Under the pieces are notes generated by a model. That model was not told where the DNA came from, ran no database searches, and saw nothing but the letters and a program-made list of their open reading frames with translations. Below are positions 25,619 to 38,809 of a stretch of 64,000 bases of DNA, piece after piece (positions within the stretch are counted from its first letter, which is position 1; every line of letters begins with the position of its first letter). Position numbers and translations under genes: made by a program. Origin of the DNA: Succinivibrio dextrinosolvens DSM 3072 (GTDB lineage Bacteria > Pseudomonadota > Gammaproteobacteria > Enterobacterales > Succinivibrionaceae); the NCBI RefSeq assembly GCF_900167015.1, contig NZ_FUXX01000002.1:1-64000 (forward strand), written 5' to 3'.

Positions 25619-25695
25619 AACGGATAGAATGAGCATCAGCCGTTAGAATAATAAGCAACGGATAAACCTCCAGAAAAATAATTAAGGTGACGGAA

Positions 25696-26631
25696 ATGGC
25701 TAAAATTTTAAATTACGGCTCATTAAATATCGATTATGTTTATGATGTGCCTCACTTTGTTAAAGCAGGTGAAACCCTATCATCAACAAGCAGAAACATC
25801 TTTGCCGGTGGAAAGGGATTAAATCAGTCAGTTGCTTTATCACGTGCTGGTGGCGATGTTTATCATGCCGGTGCAGTAGGTAAGGATGATTCTAAGATCC
25901 TTACTCAGGTTTTATCCGAAGATAAAATCGATTTCTCAAACATTGCTCTGAGAGACTGCCCTTCAGGACATACCATTATTCAGGTTGATTCAAAAGGACA
26001 GAACTGTATCATTCTTTATGGCGGTGCTAATCAGACAATCACGGAAGCCGATATTGATGCAACTCTGGCAAAATTTGACGCTGGAGATTTCATGGTTCTT
26101 CAGAACGAAACCAGCAATATCAGATACATGATTGAGAAGGCCTCTGCAAAGGGACTGAAGGTCTGCTTCAACGTATCTCCTTTTACAGATGAACTGTTAA
26201 AGCTGCCTTTAGAGAAGTGTGCCTATCTGATTGTAAATGAAATTGAAGGCGCTGCTATGGCAGGAGTTTCTGAGGACTCCGACCCATATGAGCTTTTAGA
26301 TAAGCTGTGTTCCAAGTTCCCTAAGACCTCATTTGTTCTGACTTTAGGATCAAGAGGTTCTATTCTAAAGGAAGTAGGTGCAGAGCCTATTTCATGCAGA
26401 GCATTCAAGGTAAACGCTGTGGATACAACTGCAGCAGGTGATACCTTCCTAGGCTACCTAATCTGCAATATTGCAACAGATATGAATCGTGCTCTGGCAC
26501 TCAAGGCCGCTACTGCCGCATCTGCTCTTGCTGTTCAGGTTAAGGGTGCAACTCCTTCTATTCCAAGAGCAAAGGATGTAATGGAGTTTATTAAGAAATC
26601 AAATCAGGAAGTCCTGACAGACAGACTATAA
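25696..26631 (+). CDS. rbsK: Ribokinase (PfkB family)
   Basis: A 311-residue sugar kinase. It has the PfkB N-terminal motif FAGGKGLNQSVALSRAGG (residues 37-53) and the C-terminal signature DTTAAGDTFLGYL with catalytic Asp249. Most features match RbsK, which makes ribose 5-phosphate, but the kinase could accept another furanose. It is followed by rbsD 9 bases later. ATG 25696 is chosen because AGGTGACGG supplies the SD; an in-frame GTG (25687) overlaps that SD. Confidence 0.85.
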   Translation: MAKILNYGSLNIDYVYDVPHFVKAGETLSSTSRNIFAGGKGLNQSVALSRAGGDVYHAGAVGKDDSKILTQVLSEDKIDFSNIALRDCPSGHTIIQVDSKGQNCIILYGGANQTITEADIDATLAKFDAGDFMVLQNETSNIRYMIEKASAKGLKVCFNVSPFTDELLKLPLEKCAYLIVNEIEGAAMAGVSEDSDPYELLDKLCSKFPKTSFVLTLGSRGSILKEVGAEPISCRAFKVNAVDTTAAGDTFLGYLICNIATDMNRALALKAATAASALAVQVKGATPSIPRAKDVMEFIKKSNQEVLTDRL

Positions 26632-26640
26632 GGATATAAA

Positions 26641-27042
26641 GTGAAAAAGATTGGCTGTTTAAATTCTGAATTATCTTACGTTATTTCAAAGCTTGGTCAT
26701 TTTGACACTCTGACTGTTGGAGACTGCGGTTTACCAGTTCCCCCTGGAGTTCAGAGAATTGATCTTGCTGTAACCTACGGTGTACCTGGCTTTTTTGATG
26801 TATTCAATGTAATTGATGCAGAAGCCAAGTTCCAGAAGGTTACCATTGCTTCAGAGTCTAAGACTCAGAATCCTGAATTTTATGAAAAAATCACTTCATG
26901 GGCACAGAAGAACGGTGTCGAGGTTGTCATGGTTCCTCATGAGGAGTTCAAGGCAGGCACCAAGAAGAGTGTTGCAGTGGTAAGAACAGGTGAGTGCAAG
27001 CCATACAGCAATGTTATTCTGGAATCTAACGTTTCTTTCTAG
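26641..27042 (+). CDS. rbsD: D-ribose pyranase (RbsD/FucU family)
   Basis: A 133-residue mutarotase that converts beta-D-ribopyranose to the furanose form used by ribokinase. Catalytic His20 (KLGHFDT), VGDCGLPVPPGVQRIDLA (residues 27-44) and the C-terminal VRTGECKPYSNVIL are diagnostic. It starts with GTG 26641 behind AAGGAT. Pairing with rbsK supports a ribose-type substrate for this half of the locus. E. coli RbsD has 139 residues. Confidence 0.93.
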   Translation: MKKIGCLNSELSYVISKLGHFDTLTVGDCGLPVPPGVQRIDLAVTYGVPGFFDVFNVIDAEAKFQKVTIASESKTQNPEFYEKITSWAQKNGVEVVMVPHEEFKAGTKKSVAVVRTGECKPYSNVILESNVSF

Positions 27043-27050
27043 TCTGACCT

Positions 27051-28295
27051 ATGGCTTCCGTTAACAATAAGGGAGAGGCAAATATTCTGCCTCTTTCTTA
27101 TGGACTGAGTCTTTTAAAACAGCTTCTCCCTGTTCCAACTCATATCTTCAAAAGTGACAGTCATTACTATGAAAAGTTCGATAAGGGAGAGCATGATTCA
27201 TGGAATGTCTTTAAGACGGATTATGAATTTCGTGTCCGGGTTGTTCAGAAGGTAAAGCAGTCAAGACTTACTATTATTGCTGACGAAAAACCTGTCGTAT
27301 ACGGTGGTGTCGCCTGTGCCGATGATCTGATTCTGATTATCGGACCTATCTCCATTACTGAGATTGACCAGAATTTCTGTAAGCTTTATGCATTAAAGCA
27401 CAATGCGGAAAATGTTGTTCCCTTCATGTGTTCAGTTCAGAAACTGGCATCCATTCTTCTGCTTATACACAGTTCTATTACAGGTGAATACATTTATCTT
27501 AGTGATTTTCTGAAAGAAACTGTTTTAAGTGATGACATAATTGAGAATACAAACAAGCAGTTTGCACGAATTTTTTCAGAACAGAGTCAGAGTCTGAATG
27601 TCAGAACCCATAACCCAGGATTGTTTGAAGAATCTATTAAAAACGCAATCTGCACTGGCGATGTTGCAGGTTTAAAACGAGCTCTGAACTCAATTTATTC
27701 AAGTATGAGAGGAACTCTTTCAAGAAATTCTCTTAGATCCGCCAAGAATCTTGCTATTGTGGATATAACCATAGCTACCAGAGCTGCAATTGATGTGGGG
27801 CTGTCGGTTGAGGAGATGTATACCATCTCAGATGGCTTTATCATGGAGGTTGAGGACTGTAAATACGAGTCTGATGCCGCAGCACTTGCTCATGCCTGTG
27901 CATTAAGATGCACTCAGAAGGTTGCAAAATTTCTATCAGACCAAAAGACCAAAAGTACATCTCTTTATGTAGATAGAGCCTGTCAGTATATCGATCATCA
28001 TGTTAACGATAAGTTTGATCTTCAGGAAATGTGCAGTAAGCTCAAGATAAGTTCAAGTTATCTGTCCAAGCTTTTTAAGCAGGAAAAGAACATGAGCATC
28101 GGTGATTACCTCAGAAAGCGCAAAATAGAAATTGCCAAGATGCTGTTACGTACAACGGACAGGAATATCAGTGAAATTGCCATGATTCTATCCTTTAACT
28201 CTCAAAGTCATTTTGGACGTGTTTTCCTAAAGGAAACCGGAATGACTCCCGCAGCCTACAAGAACTCAAAGGCTATCAGGGATTCGTTACTGTAG
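27051..28295 (+). CDS. AraC-family transcriptional regulator
   Basis: A 414-residue regulator. The last 100 residues form the double helix-turn-helix DNA-binding domain (DLQEMCSKLKISSSYLSKLF, then ISEIAMILSFNSQSHFGRVF and the GMTPAAYKNS end). The N-terminal 300 residues are not a recognised cupin and may hold a sensor domain. No SD is visible before ATG 27051, 8 bases after rbsD, so translation is probably coupled. It is the only regulator in the sugar locus and is a candidate activator of both halves. Possible operators are the palindromes at 25484 and 28993. Confidence 0.88.
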   Translation: MASVNNKGEANILPLSYGLSLLKQLLPVPTHIFKSDSHYYEKFDKGEHDSWNVFKTDYEFRVRVVQKVKQSRLTIIADEKPVVYGGVACADDLILIIGPISITEIDQNFCKLYALKHNAENVVPFMCSVQKLASILLLIHSSITGEYIYLSDFLKETVLSDDIIENTNKQFARIFSEQSQSLNVRTHNPGLFEESIKNAICTGDVAGLKRALNSIYSSMRGTLSRNSLRSAKNLAIVDITIATRAAIDVGLSVEEMYTISDGFIMEVEDCKYESDAAALAHACALRCTQKVAKFLSDQKTKSTSLYVDRACQYIDHHVNDKFDLQEMCSKLKISSSYLSKLFKQEKNMSIGDYLRKRKIEIAKMLLRTTDRNISEIAMILSFNSQSHFGRVFLKETGMTPAAYKNSKAIRDSLL

Positions 28296-29240: not shown

Positions 29241-30206
29241 ATGAAAATAACAAAATTCTGTGCATCAGTTGCAATGGTGTTAGCTGCATCATCAATGGCA
29301 GCATCAGTTCAGGCTGCAGAGGCAAAGCGCCTAACTGGTGGTGGTTCAAACATCATGTATATCATCACCCCATCTCACTCAAATCCTTTCTTCAAGACTG
29401 AGGCTGAGGTTGCTTCTAAGACTGCAAAAGAATTAGGTTACACCGTAAAGATGGTTTCACACGATGATAGCCCTGTAAAACAGTCAGAGCTATTTGAGAC
29501 TGCAATTTCTGATAAGGCTGCAGCTATTATCTGTGATAATGCAGGTGCTGATGCTACTGTAGCAGCTGTAAAGCGTGCTTACGACAACAATATTCCAACC
29601 TTCCTGTTTGACCGTGAAATCAACGAGCAGGGCATTGCTATCACTCAGATCGTTGCTAACAACTATCAGGGTGCAAAGGGTGCTGCTGAAGTATTCGTAG
29701 AGGCAATGGAAGAAGAAGGTGAGTATGCAGAGCTATTCGGTATTGACTCAGATACCAATGCAAAGACACGTTCAACTGCATTCCACGAGGTTATTGACCA
29801 GTATCCAGATATGAAGATGGTAGCAGTTCAGACTGCAAACTGGGATCAGAACCTAGCTTACTCAAAGATGGAGACCATTCTTCAGTCATATCCAAATCTA
29901 AAGGGTGTTATTTCTGGCAACGACAACATGGCTGTTGGTGCAGCTGCTGCTATCAAGGCTGCAGGCAAGACCCTGAAGATCATCGGTGTTGACGGTTCTA
30001 ACGATGCTCGTGACGAGATCTTAGCTGGCAACATGACTGCTACTGCAATGCAGCCTGCTGCTTTAATTGCTGAGATGGCTGTTAAGCAGGCAGACCAGTA
30101 CCTGAAGACTGGTACAACTGGCCAGCCAGAGAAGCAGTTAATCGACTGCATCATCATAACCAAAGACAATGCTAAGAAGTTAAACGACTTTACATTAGCT
30201 AAGTAA
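29241..30206 (+). CDS. Sugar ABC transporter substrate-binding protein (RbsB-like)
   Basis: A 321-residue periplasmic protein with a signal peptide (cleavage near residue 26, SVQAAEA) and the type I periplasmic-binding fold: ITPSHSNPFF (ligand loop), DRE in FLFDREINEQ, and a C-terminal GVDGSNDARDEIL. These features match pentose/ribose-type binding proteins of the RbsB family. The strong SD is TAGGAG. It is the first gene of the nine-gene transport and catabolism run. A hairpin right after it (30218-30239) would keep its mRNA most abundant. The ligand is probably a pentose. Confidence 0.9.
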   Translation: MKITKFCASVAMVLAASSMAASVQAAEAKRLTGGGSNIMYIITPSHSNPFFKTEAEVASKTAKELGYTVKMVSHDDSPVKQSELFETAISDKAAAIICDNAGADATVAAVKRAYDNNIPTFLFDREINEQGIAITQIVANNYQGAKGAAEVFVEAMEEEGEYAELFGIDSDTNAKTRSTAFHEVIDQYPDMKMVAVQTANWDQNLAYSKMETILQSYPNLKGVISGNDNMAVGAAAAIKAAGKTLKIIGVDGSNDARDEILAGNMTATAMQPAALIAEMAVKQADQYLKTGTTGQPEKQLIDCIIITKDNAKKLNDFTLAK

Positions 30207-30217
30207 ACCTCAATGTT

Positions 30218-30239
30218 TGCGCCACACTTCTGTGGCGCA
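30218..30239 (+). terminator. Attenuating hairpin after the binding-protein gene
   Basis: A perfect 9-base GC-rich stem (tgcgccaca 30218-30226, tgtggcgca 30231-30239) with a CTTC tetraloop is followed by only three Ts. It looks like a partial terminator or mRNA stabiliser, as is common after binding-protein genes. Confidence 0.75.
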
Positions 30240-30318
30240 TTTAAATAAGAATAACTAGTTAAGAGCAGGGTGCTTTTTGCACTCATAGGGGTTTTTTCGC
30301 CTCAAACAGGAGAACATC

Positions 30319-30960
30319 ATGTCAAAAGCTCGCGTAATAATTGCAGGTCTGGCAGTCGCTTTTCTAGCATATGCAGGCCTTTCTGCTACTGTTGTTAAGG
30401 AAGGTCAGGAAGCAACATTAACCGGTGAGGTAGCATTCGACCCAACAACCGTGGCAAAGAATTTCTGGGCAGAAAAATCAAAGGATTATTTTGAGAAGAA
30501 TGCTGTTGATTTAACAACTCTGATCAAGGAAGCAGACGGTGACTTTAATTCTGTTGCCTCTAAATACGGATATTACTCAATGGGTGATAAAGGTGAACTG
30601 TCCTTTATCGTCAAAGGTTCAGGAAAGGTAACCGAAGTTAAGAACAAACTTCGTTCAGGTTATTTCTCTTTTGATTTAAACGGCAATCCTTCAGAGGACG
30701 TTAAGACAAGAATTCAGATTGGTCCTGTTTTCAAAGGCTCAGCTGTAAGAGATTCAATCAGCCTTATCAGCTACGATGATTACACCAATCAGATCGAGTG
30801 GGCTCAGGTTTCAGTAGCATTCCACGAACTTATCACCAGAGATGTTCTTTCAAAAATCAATATGGATGAACTTAACGGAAAAGAATTTGATTTCCTAGGA
30901 TGCTTTACAGTAAAACCAGGTCCTCTTCAGATTACTCCTGTTGAGCTGACTGTAAAGTAG
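30319..30960 (+). CDS. DUF2291 family protein
   Basis: A 213-residue protein with an N-terminal membrane anchor or signal (about residues 6-24) and no lipobox Cys. The pattern of the mature part (VAFDPTTVAKNFWAEK near residue 40; FKGSAVRDSISLISYDDYTNQIEWAQVS near residue 138) matches the DUF2291 family as I know it. That family is repeatedly encoded between the binding protein and ATPase of ribose-type ABC transporters. Its biochemical role is unknown; a periplasmic accessory to uptake is the usual guess. The SD is AGGAGA. Confidence 0.75.
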   Translation: MSKARVIIAGLAVAFLAYAGLSATVVKEGQEATLTGEVAFDPTTVAKNFWAEKSKDYFEKNAVDLTTLIKEADGDFNSVASKYGYYSMGDKGELSFIVKGSGKVTEVKNKLRSGYFSFDLNGNPSEDVKTRIQIGPVFKGSAVRDSISLISYDDYTNQIEWAQVSVAFHELITRDVLSKINMDELNGKEFDFLGCFTVKPGPLQITPVELTVK

Positions 30961-30971
30961 GAGCGCGGTAA

Positions 30972-32507
30972 ATGAGCAACGAAAACGAAGAGATCTATTT
31001 ACACGCTGAGAAGATAGACAAAATCTATCCTGGTACCAAAGCACTGGATCAGGTTTCTTTTGATATCAAGCGTGGCAAGGTAAACGTTCTGATTGGTGAG
31101 AACGGTGCCGGTAAATCAACTCTGATGCGTATCATCGCAGGTATTGAGAAACAGTCATCAGGTAAGCTGTACCTTCAGGGTAAAGAGGTTGAGTTCAATT
31201 CAACTGTTGATGCTCGTGAGCATGGTATTGCCATTATTCACCAGGAATTATGTCTGTTCCCTAACATGACTGTGTTCCAGAACCTTTTCATGTCATCAGA
31301 GCGTACCAAGAACGGAATTCTAGATGATGCAGAACACAGAAAGCTTGCAAAGCAGGTTCTGGCAAGACTGAATTACCCTATCGACCCTGACACCATGGTT
31401 GGTGATTTAAGAGTAGGTCAGCAGCAGATGATTGAAATTGCAAGAAATCTTCTGATCCCTAATCTTAAGATTCTGATCATGGATGAGCCTACCTCATCTC
31501 TATCAGAGCAGGAAGTTGATGTTCTGTTCAACATCATGCGTGAGCTGACCGCAACAGGTATCTCAATTGTTTATATTTCTCACCGATTAGAAGAGCTGAT
31601 GAGAATCGGTGACTATGTAACCATCTTCCGTGACGGCAAGCTGGTTGCTGATGCTGCTGTAAAGGACATTGATGTACCTTGGATTGTTAAGCAGATGGTC
31701 GGTGAAGGCAAGAGCTATCCAAAGCGTGATGTAGCTGTTGACTGGTCCAAGACCAGCAAGGTTTTACAGGTCAAGGATCTTACCCTGCCAAAGAATGGTG
31801 GCGGTTATCTTCTAAACAAGGTTTCATTTGATCTGCACGAAGGTGAGGTATTAGGTATCTACGGACTATTAGGTGCAGGTAGAACCGAAATCTTCGAATG
31901 CATTATGGGTATGCGTCCAACACATACCGGTGAAGTTTATCTGAATGGAGAAAAGATCGAGATTGGTTCTGTTCCAGAGCAGATTAAGAAAGGATTTGCC
32001 TGGCTTCCAGAAGATCGTCAGCGTGACGGTCTGGTTCAGACCATGAGCATTGACAAGAATATCGCTCTGTCAAATATCTCCGAGTACACCAATGCACTGG
32101 GACTGATTGATAAGAGAAGAGAAAGTGCTGCAACTGAGGACATGATTAAGGATGTTCACATTAAGGTTGCAGATAAGGAACTTCCAATTCTTTCCTTATC
32201 AGGCGGTAACCAGCAGAAGGTGGTATTCGCCAAGGGTGCTCTGACCAAACCAAAGATCATGCTGCTGGATGAACCTTCCCGTGGTATTGATATCGGTGCG
32301 AAGACCGAAATCTTCAACCTGATTTATCAGTATGCAAAGAAGGGGGTTTCACTTCTGGTTGTATCTTCAGAGCTTGAGGAAATCATCGCTATCGCCGACC
32401 GCATTATTGTTCTGTCAAACGGCATTAAGACTGCAGAACTTACAGGCAGCGATATTACTCAGGACAATCTTGTAAAAGCTTCATATATGGGCCACAAAGC
32501 TCATTAA
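30972..32507 (+). CDS. Sugar ABC transporter ATP-binding protein (RbsA/MglA-like, two domains)
   Basis: A 511-residue tandem ATPase. The first domain has a full Walker A, GENGAGKST (residues 42-50), and MDEPTSSL. The second has the degenerate GLLGAGRTE in place of Walker A and the signature LSGGNQQKV. This asymmetry is standard for RbsA/MglA/XylG. It energises import through the adjacent permease. It starts 11 bases after the DUF2291 gene with the SD TAGGAG. Substrate class is pentose or hexose. Confidence 0.95.
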   Translation: MSNENEEIYLHAEKIDKIYPGTKALDQVSFDIKRGKVNVLIGENGAGKSTLMRIIAGIEKQSSGKLYLQGKEVEFNSTVDAREHGIAIIHQELCLFPNMTVFQNLFMSSERTKNGILDDAEHRKLAKQVLARLNYPIDPDTMVGDLRVGQQQMIEIARNLLIPNLKILIMDEPTSSLSEQEVDVLFNIMRELTATGISIVYISHRLEELMRIGDYVTIFRDGKLVADAAVKDIDVPWIVKQMVGEGKSYPKRDVAVDWSKTSKVLQVKDLTLPKNGGGYLLNKVSFDLHEGEVLGIYGLLGAGRTEIFECIMGMRPTHTGEVYLNGEKIEIGSVPEQIKKGFAWLPEDRQRDGLVQTMSIDKNIALSNISEYTNALGLIDKRRESAATEDMIKDVHIKVADKELPILSLSGGNQQKVVFAKGALTKPKIMLLDEPSRGIDIGAKTEIFNLIYQYAKKGVSLLVVSSELEEIIAIADRIIVLSNGIKTAELTGSDITQDNLVKASYMGHKAH

Positions 32508-32527
32508 AGGAATTCGGAGAATAAAAA

Positions 32528-33550
32528 ATGAATAAAAATGATGTAATTATGACCATACTCAAGGGCCGTACCCTGATTGTGCTGACCCTGTTAGTCATAT
32601 TCTTTTCCTGTGCAAGTGAATCCTTCTTTACTTCACAGTCACTGCTTCTGATTGCAAAGCACGTTGCTCTGTACGGTATCTTAGGTATTGGTATGACCTA
32701 TGTGCTGGTAACCGGCGGTATCGACCTTTCAGTAGGTTCTGTAGTTGGTTTATCCGGTATGATTGCAGGTTTACTGATTAATCATGGTTTCACCATGTTT
32801 GGTTACACCTTCTACTTCTCAATTCCAGTAATCGTACTGATTGCTATCTTTATCGGTGTGATAGTAGGTCTTATCAACGGTATCATCATCACCAAGTTTG
32901 CTGTTGCTCCATTTATTGCAACCCTAGGTATGATGTATGTTGCTCGTGGTGCCGCAAACCTAACCTCTAACGGTGCAACCTTCCCTAACCTTGTAGGTAA
33001 AGAAGCTTTAGGCAATACAGGTTTTGAAATCTTCGGCCGTGATATTGCAGGTTTCCCTGTAGCTGTAATGATTCTAATTATCATTGCAATCATTGCTGCA
33101 GTTATTCTTCGTAAGACTCCTTTCGGCTGGCATATCCTTGCAATCGGTGGTAACGAGCGCGCTGCAAAGCTTTCAGGTGTTCATGTAGATAACGACAAGA
33201 TCCTGGTTTACATGTTCTCTGGTGCATGTGCTGCAATTGTAGGTATTATCGCTACCTCTCAGCTGGTTGCTTCCCACCCAATGACCGGTAACACATGGGA
33301 AATGAACGCTATTGCTGCTGCTGTTTTAGGCGGTACATCTCTAATGGGCGGTGTTGGAACCATCGTTGGTACAGTAATCGGTGCCTTCATTATCGGCGTT
33401 ATCTCAGACGGTATGGTTATGTGCGGTGTTTCAGAGTTCTGGCAGATGATCATCAAGGGCCTTGTAATTGTTCTTGCAGTTATCATCGATCAGTACCAGC
33501 GTTCTCTACAGGCTCGCATGGCTCTACAGGCAAGAAACGAGAACAAGTAA
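32528..33550 (+). CDS. Sugar ABC transporter permease (RbsC-like)
   Basis: A 340-residue inner-membrane protein with eight to ten helices. The family markers are GMTYVLVTGGIDLSVGS (near residue 60), FIATLGMMYVARG and NEMNAI-type AAAVLGGTSLMGGVG followed by VIGAFIIGVI. It forms a homodimeric channel with the tandem ATPase. It follows the ATPase by 20 bases, with the SD GGAG. The EIIA gene starts 17 bases after it. Confidence 0.95.
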   Translation: MNKNDVIMTILKGRTLIVLTLLVIFFSCASESFFTSQSLLLIAKHVALYGILGIGMTYVLVTGGIDLSVGSVVGLSGMIAGLLINHGFTMFGYTFYFSIPVIVLIAIFIGVIVGLINGIIITKFAVAPFIATLGMMYVARGAANLTSNGATFPNLVGKEALGNTGFEIFGRDIAGFPVAVMILIIIAIIAAVILRKTPFGWHILAIGGNERAAKLSGVHVDNDKILVYMFSGACAAIVGIIATSQLVASHPMTGNTWEMNAIAAAVLGGTSLMGGVGTIVGTVIGAFIIGVISDGMVMCGVSEFWQMIIKGLVIVLAVIIDQYQRSLQARMALQARNENK

Positions 33551-33567
33551 ACACAAGGTGGCGAGAT

Positions 33568-34053
33568 ATGTTTTTTAATGAAAAAGGCGAGGAAATCCTC
33601 GCCGCCTTAAGCGGAAATGTAATTTCAATCACTGATGTTGAAAGTCCTATTTTCGCAGGAAAGGTAGTAGGCGACGGTGTTGCGATTGTTCCATATGACG
33701 GACTTGCTGTGGCACCTATTTCAGGAGTCGTATCTTTTGTCGGAGAACAGAAGCATACCTACGGTATTACAGGCTTTGACGGAACAGAGGTTCTGATTCA
33801 TCTTGGCATCGGTACAGTTGAGCTTAAGGGTGAAGGTTTTACTCCTTATGTCCAGAAGGGAGATAGAGTAAATGCTGGTGATCCAATCTGCAATGTGAAC
33901 TGGAATCTGGTAAAGGAGAGAAATCTTGATATTACCTCACCTGTTGTTATTACTTCAGGTTCAATGGAAAAGATAAAAAGACTGACTGTACTTCAGGGAC
34001 TTGCACAGGCAGGTAAGACAGCCTGCATGCGATATGTACCTGTAAAAAAATAA
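33568..34053 (+). CDS. Stand-alone PTS glucose-type EIIA domain protein
   Basis: A 161-residue protein homologous to EIIA-Glc (Crr). The two active-site histidines are His63 (QKHTYGI) and His78 (EVLIHLGI), 15 residues apart like His75/His90 of E. coli Crr. The block HLGIGTVELKGEGF is nearly family consensus. EIIA-Glc takes phosphate from HPr and regulates transporters and adenylate cyclase. Here it is embedded in an ABC sugar operon with no PTS permease. ATG 33568 follows AAGGTGG. A regulatory role at this ABC transporter or kinase is inference; a diverged Crr paralog in normal PTS use is the alternative. Confidence 0.88.
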   Translation: MFFNEKGEEILAALSGNVISITDVESPIFAGKVVGDGVAIVPYDGLAVAPISGVVSFVGEQKHTYGITGFDGTEVLIHLGIGTVELKGEGFTPYVQKGDRVNAGDPICNVNWNLVKERNLDITSPVVITSGSMEKIKRLTVLQGLAQAGKTACMRYVPVKK

Positions 34054-34081
34054 ATTTTTCAAACAAATAAAAGGATCAATC

Positions 34082-35485
34082 ATGACAGCTAAGATTAAGC
34101 TTGGTTTTGTACCAACAAGAAGAAGTGTGTTCAGTGCTCCAGATGCTCTTAAATACAGAGATCTGACAGCAGCTCGTATGAAGGAACTTGGTATCGATTT
34201 TGTAGACATCAAGGATATCAATCCTGAAGGTCTGCTGTTTGCTGATGAGGATGTAGCAAAGATTGCAGCCAAATTCAGAAAGGAAGGCGTTGACGGAATC
34301 ATTCTGGCACACTGCAACTTCGGTACAGAATATGTCTGTGCAAGACTAGCTAAGGAGCTTAATCTTCCTGTGCTGCTATGGGGACCTTTGGATGAGCGCC
34401 CTCTTCCTGACGGTCGCAGACTGCGTGATACACAGTGCGGTCTGTTCGCAACTGGTAAGGTACTGCGCAGATTCCAGGTAAAGTTTACCTATCTGACCAA
34501 CTGTCGTCTGTCAGATCCTGTCTTTGAGCGCGGCCTGCGTGACTTTATGGCTGTATGTAACGTTGTAAAGACATTCAGACATATCCGTATCCTTCAGATG
34601 GGACCTCGTCCTTTCGATTTCTGGACTACCATGTGCAATGAAGGTGAGTTACTGGAGAAGTTCAACATTCAGCTGTCTCCTATACCTCTGCCAGAGCTTT
34701 TAGCTGAAGTCCGCAGAATTCGTGACGGTAACGGAGCCAAGGAAGAGCTTGAGATCCTTCATGACAAGACAGTTATCAAGATTTCCGAACCAAAGGTTGA
34801 GACTGTGGCTGCACTTGCAAGAGCAATGCGCAATCTGATTGAAAAGTATGGCTGTCAGGCTGGTGCCATCCAGTGCTGGACTGCACTTCAGGGCGAGCTT
34901 GGAATCATGCCTTGTGCAGCAAACTCAATCCTTAACGATTTAGGCATTCCAGTTGTCTGTGAGACTGATATTCATGGCGCAATTACAGCCCTGATGGCAG
35001 AAGCTGCCGTTATGAATGAATCTCGAAGCTTCTTTGCTGACTGGACAGTACGCCACCCAGATAATCCAAACGGTGAACTGCTGCAGCACTGTGGTCCTTG
35101 GCCAATTTCAATTGCCAAGGAAAAGCCTGAATTAACCTGTCCAATCGCTTTTGATGATGAAGGTTCTCTATCTGCAGAGGCTAAAGCAGGTAAAGAGCTG
35201 ACACTTACAAGATTCGATGGCGACAACGGAGAGTATTCTCTGCTGCTTGGTAATGCCAAGAGTGTAGAAGGCCCTAAGATTCTGGGAACCTATATGTGGG
35301 TTGAGGTTGAGAATATCAAACGCCTTGAGGAAAAGGTTGTAACCGGACCATATATTCACCACTGTGTAGGTGTCTACAAGAATGTTGTTCCTATTCTCTA
35401 TGAGGCATGTAAGTACATCGGTATCAAGGCAGATCTGTACGATCCGATTGAAGAACAGGTGAAGGCATATCTACGTGGAGAATAA
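34082..35485 (+). CDS. L-fucose/L-arabinose isomerase family protein
   Basis: A 467-residue protein whose features (ILAHCNFGTE near residue 75, LLWGPLDERPLPDGRR near 99, ETDIHGA near 303, PYIHHCVGV near the end) place it in the FucI/AraA C-terminal superfamily. Such enzymes convert aldoses to ketoses at a divalent metal. In this operon its product would feed the FGGY kinase and then the split transketolase. If the substrate is D-apiose, it would be the apiose-to-apulose isomerase; an ordinary aldopentose is equally compatible. The SD is AAGGA. Confidence 0.75.
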   Translation: MTAKIKLGFVPTRRSVFSAPDALKYRDLTAARMKELGIDFVDIKDINPEGLLFADEDVAKIAAKFRKEGVDGIILAHCNFGTEYVCARLAKELNLPVLLWGPLDERPLPDGRRLRDTQCGLFATGKVLRRFQVKFTYLTNCRLSDPVFERGLRDFMAVCNVVKTFRHIRILQMGPRPFDFWTTMCNEGELLEKFNIQLSPIPLPELLAEVRRIRDGNGAKEELEILHDKTVIKISEPKVETVAALARAMRNLIEKYGCQAGAIQCWTALQGELGIMPCAANSILNDLGIPVVCETDIHGAITALMAEAAVMNESRSFFADWTVRHPDNPNGELLQHCGPWPISIAKEKPELTCPIAFDDEGSLSAEAKAGKELTLTRFDGDNGEYSLLLGNAKSVEGPKILGTYMWVEVENIKRLEEKVVTGPYIHHCVGVYKNVVPILYEACKYIGIKADLYDPIEEQVKAYLRGE

Positions 35486-35489
35486 TGAA

Positions 35490-36314
35490 ATGAAAGAATT
35501 AAGAAAACTGGCATATAGACTTCGCCAGGATGTCGTTGACATGATCGTCAACGGTAAAGGCGGACATATCGGTGGTGATATGTCTGTCATGGATGTTCTG
35601 GTTACTCTTTATTTCAAAGAGATGAACATTACAAAAGAAAACTTTAATACAAAGAATCATGACCATTTCATTATGAGTAAAGGTCATTCTGTAGAGTCAT
35701 TATATGCAGTTCTAGCTGAGAAGGGATTCTTCTCAAGAGAGACTTTATTAAAGGAATTCAGTCAGTTCGGTTCAAAGTTTATCGGTCATCCAAACAATAA
35801 ACTGCCAGGCATTGAAATGAATTCAGGTGCCTTAGGTCACGGTCTTCCTGTAGCAGTAGGCATGGCAATCGCAGAGAGAATGAATAAGAGCAGTAACCGT
35901 GTTTATGTTGTCATGGGCGATGGCGAGCTTGCTGAAGGTTCAGTATGGGAAGGCGCAATGGCCGGTGCCAATTACAGACTTGATAATCTGTGCGCTGTTC
36001 TTGATAGAAACCGTCTGCAGATTTCAGGTTCAACTGAAGATGTTATGGCACTGGATGATCTTCATCGCAAGTGGGACAGCTTTGGCTGGCATGTAATTGA
36101 TGTCTCAGATGGCAATGATATTGAAAAGCTTTCCGCTGCTTTTGAAGAAGCCCGTATTGTTAAAGGCAAACCAACAGTTCTGATCGCCAATACAGTCAAG
36201 GGTAAAGGTTCTCCTGTAATGGAAAACAAGGCTTCATGGCATCACCATGTTCCAAATGAAGAAGAATACAGACAGATCATGAGTGATTTGAAAGCTAGAG
36301 CAGAGGAGGACTAA
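35490..36314 (+). CDS. Transketolase, N-terminal (TPP-binding) subunit
   Basis: A 274-residue protein equal to the first domain of transketolase. It has the thiamine diphosphate motif GDGELAEGSVWEGA...N (about residues 146-180), GHSVESLYA near residue 65 and a HHHVPNEEEY end. It needs the following gene for the pyrimidine-binding half. ATG 35490 is chosen with GGAG about 9 bases upstream; an in-frame GTG at 35475 overlaps the isomerase end. Split transketolases are common in dedicated sugar operons, including the apulose-4-phosphate transketolase pair. Confidence 0.92.
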   Translation: MKELRKLAYRLRQDVVDMIVNGKGGHIGGDMSVMDVLVTLYFKEMNITKENFNTKNHDHFIMSKGHSVESLYAVLAEKGFFSRETLLKEFSQFGSKFIGHPNNKLPGIEMNSGALGHGLPVAVGMAIAERMNKSSNRVYVVMGDGELAEGSVWEGAMAGANYRLDNLCAVLDRNRLQISGSTEDVMALDDLHRKWDSFGWHVIDVSDGNDIEKLSAAFEEARIVKGKPTVLIANTVKGKGSPVMENKASWHHHVPNEEEYRQIMSDLKARAEED

Positions 36315-36316
36315 CT

Positions 36317-37252
36317 ATGGCTAATATTGCAAATAAACAGATGATCTGTGATGTCTTAATGGAAGCAGCCCAGAAGGATAAGGATATTGTTGTACTTTGC
36401 TCTGATTCAAGAGGTAGTGCCTCAGCAACTCCATTTGCCAATGCCTTTCCTGAGCAGTTTGTTGAAGTAGGTATTGCCGAGCAGGATCTTGTAGGTATTG
36501 CAGCCGGTATGGCCAGGGTTGGCAAAAGAACCTTCCCTATGTCTCCTGCCTGTTTTATCACTGCCCGTTCATATGAACAGTGCAAGGTTGATGTTGCCTA
36601 CTCTCATACCAATGTAAAGCTTGTTGGCATTTCCGGCGGTGTAAGTTATGGCGCTTTAGGTATGTCTCATCACTCAGCACAGGATATTGCATGCATGTCA
36701 TCAATTCCTGGCATGAGAGTATATCTGCCATCAGACTGCAATCAGACAAGAAAGCTGATGGAAGTTCTGGTTAAGGATAATGAGCCTGCCTACATTCGTG
36801 TAGGAAGAAATGCAGTTGAGCCTGTATACAGCGAAGATAATGTTCCTTTTGAGATGGATAAGGCTACCTGGGTATGCAAGGGTGAAGATGTTGCAATTGT
36901 TGCCTGCGGTGAGATGGTTCTGTATGCAAAACAGGCTGCAGAAATCCTGAAGAAGAAAGGCATCAGCGCAACTGTTCTTGATATGTACTGCGTAAAACCT
37001 TTTGATAAGGCTGCTGTAATTGAAGCTGCAAAGAATGCTAAAGCAGTAATTTCAGTTGAAGAGCATTCTCCTTTTGGCGGTTTAGGTTCAATGGTAGCTC
37101 AGACAGTTTCAGAGAACTGCCCTAAGAAATGTGTAACTATGTCTTTACCTGATGAACCTGTTATTACAGGTAATTCAAAGGAAGTCTTTGCCTACTACAA
37201 ACTAACCGGTGAAGGTATTGCAGCTAAGGCAGAGGAACTGCTAAATGACTAA
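36317..37252 (+). CDS. Transketolase, C-terminal (pyrimidine-binding) subunit
   Basis: A 311-residue protein equal to transketolase domains 2 and 3. It shows FVEVGIAEQDLVGIAAGMA with the Glu that activates thiamine diphosphate, SYGALGMSHHSAQDIA, and a C-terminal domain ending in VEEHSPFGGLGSMVAQ. It pairs with the upstream subunit, two bases away, to move a two-carbon ketol unit from a ketose phosphate. The SD is GAGGA. The kinase gene overlaps its end by 8 bases. Confidence 0.92.
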   Translation: MANIANKQMICDVLMEAAQKDKDIVVLCSDSRGSASATPFANAFPEQFVEVGIAEQDLVGIAAGMARVGKRTFPMSPACFITARSYEQCKVDVAYSHTNVKLVGISGGVSYGALGMSHHSAQDIACMSSIPGMRVYLPSDCNQTRKLMEVLVKDNEPAYIRVGRNAVEPVYSEDNVPFEMDKATWVCKGEDVAIVACGEMVLYAKQAAEILKKKGISATVLDMYCVKPFDKAAVIEAAKNAKAVISVEEHSPFGGLGSMVAQTVSENCPKKCVTMSLPDEPVITGNSKEVFAYYKLTGEGIAAKAEELLND

Positions 37253-38738
37253 AGATGTCTATGTACTGGGCATCGATCAGAGTACGCAGGGTACCAAAGC
37301 CCTGCTCTTTGATGCTCAGGGAAAACTTGTTGATAAGGCAACTCTTCCTCACAGACAGATTATCAATGAACTAGGCTATGTTGAGCACGATCTTAATGAG
37401 ATTGCAGCTAATGTAATCGGTGTCGTAAAGGCTCTTATTGATAGGGATCCTAAACGTTCCGAGAAAATTGCAACTGTTGGTCTGTCTGTACAGCGTGAAA
37501 CCGTTGGAGCCTGGAGAAAATCCACTTTAGAGCCTCTCTATAATGCGATTGTCTGGCAGTGTGCTCGCGGTGCTGAGTTTGTATCACGTCCTGAAGTTAA
37601 GTCTAAGGCTGACAGAATCCGCCAGATTACAGGTCTTGAGTTGTCAGAGTATTTCTCAGCGGCAAAAATAACCTGGCTTGTAGACAATGTGCCTGCTCTT
37701 AAGGAGTGTGCTGACAGGAAGGATTTATGTATTGGCAACATGGATTCTTTCCTGATTTCCTTTTTAACTCATGGAAAAAACTTTGCTACAGAGCCTTCAA
37801 ACGCATCAAGAACTCAGCTGATGGATCTTAAGAAAATATGCTGGTCTGAGGAGTTATGTTCTCTGTTTAAAGTTCCTTTAGAAGCACTTCCAGAGATTAA
37901 GGATTCAGATTCTGAGTTCGGTTTAACTGACTTTAATGGTCTTTTAAAACATCAGATCCCAATTCATGCCGCAATCGGTGATTCTCAGGGCGCACTGTTC
38001 GGACATGGATGCAGCAAACCTGGACAGGTTAAGACAACCTATGGTACCGGCTCATCAATTATGATGAACAGCGGTTCTGAGGTTTCTTCATGCGAAAAAG
38101 GAATTGTAAATTCTGTTGGCTGGAGACGGCGAGGCAGTACAACTTATGTGCTTGAGGGTAATATCAATTACTCAGCGGGTATCATAAGCTATCTTAAGGA
38201 TGATATGCAGCTTATCAGTGACCCTAAAGAAACAGAAGAACTTGCAAGAGCTGCCAATCCAAATGACAGATGCTATTTTGTTCCAGCGCTATCAGGGTTA
38301 GGTGCTCCATATTTTAACGGTAATGTAAGAGGTTCTATTCTTGGAATCAGCAGACTTACCGGTAAAAATGAAATCGTAAGAGCTGCTCTTGATTCTATTG
38401 CCTATCAGGTAAACGATATTATTACCCTGATAAGAAGATCTTCTGATGTTGAGGTAACTCAGCTTTGCGTGGACGGCGGTGCTACATCAAATAAATATCT
38501 GATGCAGTTTCAGGCTGATCTTTTAAGACTTCCTTTAAAGGTTCCTGCTGTTGCAGAACTTTCAGGAATGGGAGCAGCCTTCATGGCTGCAATTGCTCAA
38601 GGAATCTACTCTGAAAATATACTAAGTGAGGATAGATTTGAGAATTCCTATATTCCAAAAGCTGATAAGAATGAAATAGATGCAAAGGTTGAAGGATGGC
38701 ATAAAGCCATAAATTCAACTATAGGATATGGGATTTAA
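37245..38738 (+). CDS. FGGY-family carbohydrate kinase (xylulokinase-like; possible apulose kinase)
   Basis: A 497-residue kinase of the ribokinase-unrelated FGGY family: GIDQSTQGTKALLFD at the start (phosphate-1 loop), GDSQGALFGHGC near residue 245, TTYGTGSSIMMN and the C-terminal CVDGGATSNKYLMQFQADLL. It phosphorylates a ketose made by the isomerase. The start resembles xylulokinase and glycerol kinase equally, so substrate rests on context. It overlaps the transketolase gene by 8 bases with the SD GAGGAA and is the last gene before a strong terminator. Confidence 0.85.
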   Translation: MTKDVYVLGIDQSTQGTKALLFDAQGKLVDKATLPHRQIINELGYVEHDLNEIAANVIGVVKALIDRDPKRSEKIATVGLSVQRETVGAWRKSTLEPLYNAIVWQCARGAEFVSRPEVKSKADRIRQITGLELSEYFSAAKITWLVDNVPALKECADRKDLCIGNMDSFLISFLTHGKNFATEPSNASRTQLMDLKKICWSEELCSLFKVPLEALPEIKDSDSEFGLTDFNGLLKHQIPIHAAIGDSQGALFGHGCSKPGQVKTTYGTGSSIMMNSGSEVSSCEKGIVNSVGWRRRGSTTYVLEGNINYSAGIISYLKDDMQLISDPKETEELARAANPNDRCYFVPALSGLGAPYFNGNVRGSILGISRLTGKNEIVRAALDSIAYQVNDIITLIRRSSDVEVTQLCVDGGATSNKYLMQFQADLLRLPLKVPAVAELSGMGAAFMAAIAQGIYSENILSEDRFENSYIPKADKNEIDAKVEGWHKAINSTIGYGI

Positions 38739-38781: not shown

Positions 38782-38809
38782 GGGGATCTTTCATGATCCC
38801 CATTTTTTT
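38782..38809 (+). terminator. Terminator of the ABC sugar operon
   Basis: A perfect 7-base stem (ggggatc 38782-38788, gatcccc 38795-38801) with a 6-base loop is followed by a run of seven Ts. Confidence 0.92.

Follow-up and report, generated by a model that had tools for sequence, protein, structure and literature searches.

The window analysed here is a 64,000-nucleotide stretch of contig NZ_FUXX01000002.1 from the draft genome of the rumen bacterium Succinivibrio dextrinosolvens DSM 3072 (2.67 Mb, 97% complete). An operon on its forward strand (29241–38738) encodes a CUT2-type ABC importer, an isomerase, a split transketolase and a kinase, and the gene of a stand-alone EIIA protein of the glucose type lies in the slot between the permease and isomerase genes. 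The following features were assigned:

25687..28295, + strand: PfkB kinase, RbsD/FucU mutarotase and AraC-type regulator, upstream of the operon (profiles)
29241..30206, + strand: CUT2 sugar-binding protein (profile; best PDB matches 5ibq/4ry0)
30319..30960, + strand: DUF2291 lipoprotein (profile)
30972..32507, + strand: XylG/AraG/RbsA-type tandem ABC ATPase, putative target of EIIA (profiles)
32528..33550, + strand: CUT2 permease (profiles)
33555..33561, + strand: Shine-Dalgarno sequence AAGGTGG of the EIIA gene (read from the sequence)
33568..34053, + strand: stand-alone EIIA-Glc-fold protein, 161 aa, with His63 and His78 (ORF, profile, alignment, predicted structure)
34082..35485, + strand: L-fucose-isomerase-type sugar isomerase, probable D-apiose isomerase (profiles, sequence comparison)
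35475..36314, + strand: transketolase N-terminal subunit, AptA-like (profile, comparison)
36317..37252, + strand: transketolase C-terminal subunit, AptB-like (profile, comparison)
37245..38738, + strand: GlpK-like FGGY kinase, probable apulose kinase (profiles, comparison)
38782..38801, + strand: terminator-like stem with T-rich tail, 3' of the kinase gene (pattern match only)

With a tandem-NBD ATPase, a single permease and a binding protein, the operon has the make-up of a CUT2 importer; the ATPase contains two ABC_tran stretches, and its best NCBIfam models are XylG/AraG/RbsA, all below their equivalog cut-offs. The stem at 38782–38801 likely marks the operon end, in a pattern scan that found 13 sites versus 7.0 in shuffles. 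Two or all three of the upstream genes also have homologues near the operon in loci L041, L042, L043, L045, L046, L050 and L052, and the trio may be functionally linked to it.

Comparison with known proteins points to the plant sugar D-apiose as the probable substrate. The complete D-apiose gene set (isomerase, FGGY kinase, split transketolase and binding protein–DUF2291–ATPase–permease) is present in the operon, and the best PDB match of the binding protein is 5ibq (1.5e-101), a structure that we take to hold D-apiose; the primary D-apiose paper is said to be that of Carter et al. The D-apiose cluster of E. coli SE15 shares the binding protein, DUF2291 protein, ATPase, permease, FGGY kinase and two transketolase genes with the window (43, 25, 50, 52, 35, 44 and 36% identity, respectively), but has neither an EIIA nor an isomerase. 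Since these identities reach just 25–52%, the substrate is given as probable only. According to the accessible part of one report, E. coli strains with the apiose cluster grow on D-apiose, and E. coli lacks the isomerase (PMC13001218). Isomerase matches in 15 plasmid records are closest in Bacillota (Monoglobus, 74.7%; two Listeria records, 69%). An ABC importer also lies near the Monoglobus isomerase, in a locus where no EIIA gene is annotated, and an uncharacterised cluster on a Klebsiella plasmid holds the transketolase pair, an isomerase (28%) and a kinase together.

The EIIA gene is separated by 17 bases from the permease stop codon (33548–33550) and by 28 bases from the isomerase start (34082), and its Shine-Dalgarno sequence lies 6 bases 5' of the ATG. 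A longer mechanical ORF runs from 33295, where an in-frame ATG falls within the permease gene farther upstream; in alignments, the Succinivibrionaceae homologues begin at residue 1 of the 161-aa protein. The protein matches PF00358 with 138.4 bits (E 1.3e-40, curated cut-off 27.2) and TIGR00830 with 120.4 bits (cut-off 97.5), whereas its score against the Crr equivalog PRK09439 (125.9 bits) is below the curated cut-off of 212 and places it outside that equivalog. His63 stands in KHTYGI and His78 in LIHLGI. The best PDB matches of the AlphaFold2 model (pLDDT 89.8) are EIIA-Glc structures at TM 0.86, among them 1f3g of E. coli, to which the protein is 40% identical; nothing in it corresponds to the very start of E. 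coli Crr (alignment gap at residue 3). The ORF, the PF00358 match and the alignment thus bear out the earlier note, which had described a 161-residue EIIA domain with both histidines and its own Shine-Dalgarno sequence in the permease–isomerase slot. Its remark that no PTS permease lies nearby also holds for the 20 window ORFs scanned by profile search between 22476 and 41923. Compared with S. dextrinosolvens ACV-10, the gene has a dN of 0.046 and a dS of 0.815 and is, by this measure, under purifying selection. In the same table of dN and dS values, most rows of locus L043 are saturated, as is dS in the crr and EI rows, and the transketolase N subunit versus L043 was left out for an impossible dN of 2.97. 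Among nine operon proteins, EIIA, DUF2291 and the kinase are the three fastest-evolving. A G+C-rich hairpin of seven pairs, found on the minus strand just inside the coding start (33586–33603), could affect EIIA translation or mRNA processing.

The linkage of EIIA to this operon was assessed in a set of genomes not chosen by EIIA, consisting of the DSM 3072 genome and 23 family members (24 Succinivibrionaceae genomes). An isomerase orthologue (at least 80% identity) is present in 10/24, while most of the others have only a distant isomerase with 24–29% identity. In 8 of the 10 isomerase-bearing genomes the EIIA gene sits in the permease–isomerase slot, so that the linkage to ABC operons in relatives, on which the earlier note had made its idea depend, is conserved. 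The operons of G007 and G013 lack EIIA in the slot, with a permease–isomerase gap of about 65–75 bases, and a His-intact EIIA-Glc is absent altogether from G007; the pathway therefore does not need EIIA. A G+C-rich inverted repeat is visible by eye in the gap of these EIIA-less operons (L114, L115). In the isomerase tree, which is mostly unresolved, two changes in EIIA presence, as gain or as loss, are needed to account for G007 and G013. Loci related to the window EIIA number 20 (14 from Succinivibrionaceae, 5 from Brevibacillus and 1 from Caloramator, the latter six distant), and EIIA occupies the slot in 13/14 of the Succinivibrionaceae loci, a fraction biased by the EIIA query; five loci found in this way belong to genomes already in the 24-genome set. 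The exception is Succinatimonas hippei: its EIIA gene follows genes for an MglB-like binding protein (score below cut-off) and for an L-ribulose-5-phosphate 3-epimerase, and CUT2 ABC genes as well as an FGGY kinase gene lie nearby. The neighbours of EIIA are close in most slot-bearing loci; co-transcription is not certain in L044, L047, L048 and L051 because of wide gaps (104–227 bases to the permease, 237–700 to the isomerase), which hold no ORF longer than 92 codons. Both histidines are kept in 16/16 operon EIIAs. Searched against plasmids, query P0001 returned 743 records, and the 40 of 743 listed were annotated as crr or PTS IIA/IIABC/IIBC or were unannotated.

The DSM 3072 genome contains three EIIA-Glc genes above the cut-off, including that of the window. 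The earlier note had asked whether the genome has a separate crr and had let its idea fall if there were none. Two other EIIA-Glc genes do exist, one at the ancestral cysZ–ptsI place and one beside a LysR gene, but both lack both histidines, and the window EIIA is the only His-intact EIIA-Glc found. The EI gene at the cysZ locus has lost four of 8 checked residues. The dead-looking EI–Crr pair at this ancestral cysZ–ptsI–crr place (L005 7439–9719, contig C21:57438–59718) recurs in the genus. In the EI-like protein N454S, D455S, C502A and the loss of R465 (E. coli numbering) are found in 17/17 aligned copies and H189 is kept in 17/17, the alignment leaving out three partial or split copies (L065, L091, L100). 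Both histidines are absent from 18/18 cysZ-site Crr copies found (18 of 19 Succinivibrio genomes); no EI-like gene was detected next to the Crr of G011. Compared with G004, the pair shows a dN of 0.03–0.04 with saturated dS, and given this low dN it looks maintained, perhaps as a scaffold or decoy. The third, fast-evolving His-less gene (L006 3513–6107, contig C77) lies between the LysR regulator and a membrane transporter and is present in 12/19 Succinivibrio genomes.

An intact EI gene is located on contig C15, with all 8 checked active-site residues kept, and one HPr gene with GVHARPA on contig C51; with both present, a phosphorelay to EIIA is possible. The intact EI gene (L108 2213–5354) lies directly 5' of a four-carbon acid sugar kinase-like gene, the best model of which, D-threonate kinase, scores below cut-off. 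A glucose-family EIIB (PF00367) finds no match in the draft genome or in 17/18 other Succinivibrio genomes, and PF02378 finds no EIIC in the draft genome; the EIIC survey by PF02378 misses the fructose type, with the mannose, lactose, sorbitol and ascorbate types outside its reach. A fructose-type IIABC and a PtsN-type gene were reached via PF00359. This find rules out a genome without any PTS permease and therefore limits the no-permease claim to the glucose family. As no glucose-family EIIB was found, the phosphate of EIIA has no known transport outlet. Among the relatives, G006 has three clustered proteins of 718–728 aa with low PF02378 matches above cut-off (58–78 bits; L116 5237–12896), and G013 has one similar PF02378 match.

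Next to canonical crr genes, the operon EIIAs stand apart. In a tree of 54 rows selected from those found (midpoint root for drawing only), the 16 operon EIIAs group with that of S. hippei at 99/95, and at 100/99 when the lone EIIAs of G006, G013 and G018 are added; this operon clade is apart from canonical crr, and 10 cysZ-site copies form their own clade (100/99). The window EIIA is not the ancestral crr. Fourteen positions are fixed in the operon EIIAs (15 or 16/16) and differ from canonical Crr (9 or 10/10), 11 of them at E. coli positions 39–45, 68–78 and 88, around the two histidines. In E. coli, the EIIA face around the histidines binds partners, and the operon EIIAs show signs of a changed partner face. 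Thr73 of E. coli, beside the active histidine, is Gln in 15/16 operon EIIAs, so phosphotransfer may be altered.

Several readings of the window EIIA have to be weighed. It could be the cell's general EIIA-Glc that moved into the operon and serves global targets, as would fit the finding that the slot EIIA is the only His-intact EIIA-Glc found in 7/7 Succinivibrio genomes having it. However, 8/19 Succinivibrio genomes (two of them only 59% and 69% complete) have no His-intact EIIA-Glc, although the intact EI has an orthologue in 18/19 (split over two contigs in G003, with one in-frame stop in G011) and HPr was found in 18/19. The slot EIIA thus looks like an operon accessory gene rather than a housekeeping gene. 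Moreover, all nine family genomes outside the Succinivibrio set that have a slot EIIA (G021, G041–G048) carry another His-intact EIIA-Glc domain, in frames of 170–267 codons in 8/9 and in a fused permease in G046. This coexistence makes the slot EIIA look dedicated, in line with the earlier note, which had proposed a dedicated local EIIA for the ABC sugar operon. Together with the phylogenetic distance from crr, these points leave the general role improbable. Even less credit goes to the idea that EIIA donates phosphate to a PTS permease without an EIIA of its own: both histidines are kept and the protein scores as high against the beta-glucoside permease EIIA domain (126.3 bits) as against Crr (125.9 bits), but the missing PF00367 matches speak against it, as does the fact that the sole PTS permease found in the genome, in a survey with PF00367, PF02378 and PF00359, is of the fructose type with its own EIIA. 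Nor do we attach more than a slight chance to the view that EIIA is left over from a PTS permease which formerly belonged to the operon. A Listeria record does show such an arrangement, with isomerase (69%), split transketolase and kinase followed by a PTS IIBCA permease (a second record is unannotated there); yet in the tree the EIIA domain from Listeria falls outside the group of operon EIIAs, and EIIA is under purifying selection with fixed histidines.

A rather unlikely reading follows the example of E. coli, in which EIIA-Glc regulates glycerol kinase, and makes the GlpK-like FGGY kinase of this operon the target of EIIA, either alone or together with the ABC ATPase. Glycerol kinase models give the operon kinase its top score (505 bits, under the equivalog cut-off of 590), and EIIA and the kinase are both fast-evolving. 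FGGY kinase genes also accompany related EIIAs: they are divergent from the EIIA gene in G006, G013 and G018, G015 has EIIA between a GPH symporter and an FGGY kinase, and in G043 the rhamnose operon with EIIA as its last gene has a rhamnulokinase gene divergent to it (kinase type near these EIIAs was profile-scored for G006 and G015 only). In E. coli, GlpK segment 472–481 docks EIIA-Glc. The segment aligned with its PGIETTERNY is, however, variable in 9 Succinivibrionaceae kinases, where the position of Glu478 is E in 3/9 (one from the EIIA-less G013 operon), I in 1, W in 2 and T in 3, and a GlpK-type docking site in the operon kinase was therefore rejected. In addition, the Monoglobus kinase belongs to the same operon type with no EIIA gene beside it. 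Bacillota GlpK is phosphorylated by HPr on a histidine near the IPISGIAGDQ region; the alignment of these Succinivibrionaceae kinases shows no conserved histidine just before E. coli IPISGIAGDQ, and a histidine is conserved within the aligned motif, at the position of its Ser. Of the two targets suggested in the earlier note, gating of the kinase is hence weaker than that of the ATPase, since the GlpK docking segment is not conserved. The ATPase half is favoured by E. coli, where EIIA-Glc, according to the accessible part of one study, shows FRET with the RbsA and MglA ATPases that is stimulated by PTS sugars (PMC4996493). A distance-matrix comparison over 10 operons gave a partial r of 0.45 for EIIA with the ATPase and 0.47 with the kinase and does not single out the ATPase.

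The reading we prefer, at about even odds, is that EIIA is a dedicated, operon-borne regulator through which the PTS phosphorelay gates one non-PTS importer, as a local brake on the ABC ATPase. It draws on the fold, the histidines, the linkage, the coexistence in relatives, the purifying selection, the intact EI and HPr genes and the lack of an EIIB-Glc match. Phosphate would pass from PEP via EI (C15) and HPr (C51) to His78 of EIIA, which is aligned with E. coli His90, the phosphorylation site there. With no glucose-family EIIB as outlet, the ratio of phosphorylated to dephosphorylated EIIA may report both the PEP/pyruvate ratio and the influx of PTS sugars, for which the genome encodes a fructose-type permease. 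In its dephosphorylated form, EIIA would bind the RbsA-type ATPase of its own operon and slow uptake of the substrate, probably D-apiose, the outcome being inducer exclusion by a private EIIA copy.

Compared with E. coli Crr, the window EIIA has the same fold and both histidines, and contact of Crr with such ATPases is reported. It differs in being a local operon gene away from ptsHI, without the N-terminal extension, with changed and fixed residues around the histidines in the operon EIIAs and no glucose-family EIIB match in the genome. LacS-type GPH symporters carry a fused EIIA and are thus alike in having a dedicated EIIA for a single non-PTS transporter, whereas the window EIIA is separate and goes with an ABC importer; relatives have unfused GPH and EIIA pairs. 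The DSM 3072 genome also encodes a GPH/MelB-like symporter with a C-terminal fructose-type EIIA (L119, contig C44 near 102614), a fusion of LacS-like design with a different EIIA class, both parts scoring below model cut-offs. PTS-Ntr and incomplete PTS likewise use an EIIA without a permease partner as regulator: the accessible parts of two reports describe a PTS-Ntr or incomplete regulatory PTS in Brucella (PMC2937029) and inactivated ABC transport in PTS-Ntr mutants of Rhizobium leguminosarum (PMC3665714). Those EIIAs are, however, of the EIIA-Ntr and Man types and not operon-borne with one importer, while the window EIIA is of the EIIA-Glc type. Among the matches listed, which cover few subscription papers, none is about a stand-alone EIIA that belongs to an ABC operon, nor about Succinivibrio PTS proteins. 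If the proposed mechanism holds, an operon-borne EIIA acting on one CUT2 importer would be a new form of inducer exclusion.

Stand-alone EIIAs are found in other sugar operons of the family as well. In G043 (L154 211–9647), a rhamnose CUT2 ABC operon has at its 3' end a stand-alone EIIA that is 28% identical to the window EIIA, with rhamnose isomerase and rhamnulokinase above NCBIfam cut-offs and the rhamnulokinase gene divergent. In L092, L155 and L156, stand-alone EIIAs lie directly behind GPH symporters (above cut-off). The sister EIIAs of G006, G013 and G018 each have an FGGY kinase gene in divergent orientation beside them, and in the stretches read no sugar transporter of the ABC or GPH class was recognised; the MFS transporters near those of G006 and G013 score as efflux-type. 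A tentative and rather doubtful extension is that the PTS of Succinivibrionaceae works as a set of local switches, with apiose CUT2, rhamnose CUT2 and GPH uptake operons each having a private EIIA, and that in Succinivibrio the ancestral EI–Crr remains only as a conserved, catalytically dead pair. The private EIIAs, each with its own partner face, would then let the operons read the same EI/HPr phosphate signal at their own sensitivity.

Textbooks present EIIA-Glc as the global regulator of sugar choice, and RbsA-type ATPases are not known to have the regulatory domain through which EIIA acts on MalK. If true, a private EIIA per importer would offer a clean system for studying EIIA action on RbsA-type ATPases, which the FRET work in E. 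coli left open, and would show how global sugar control can become local.
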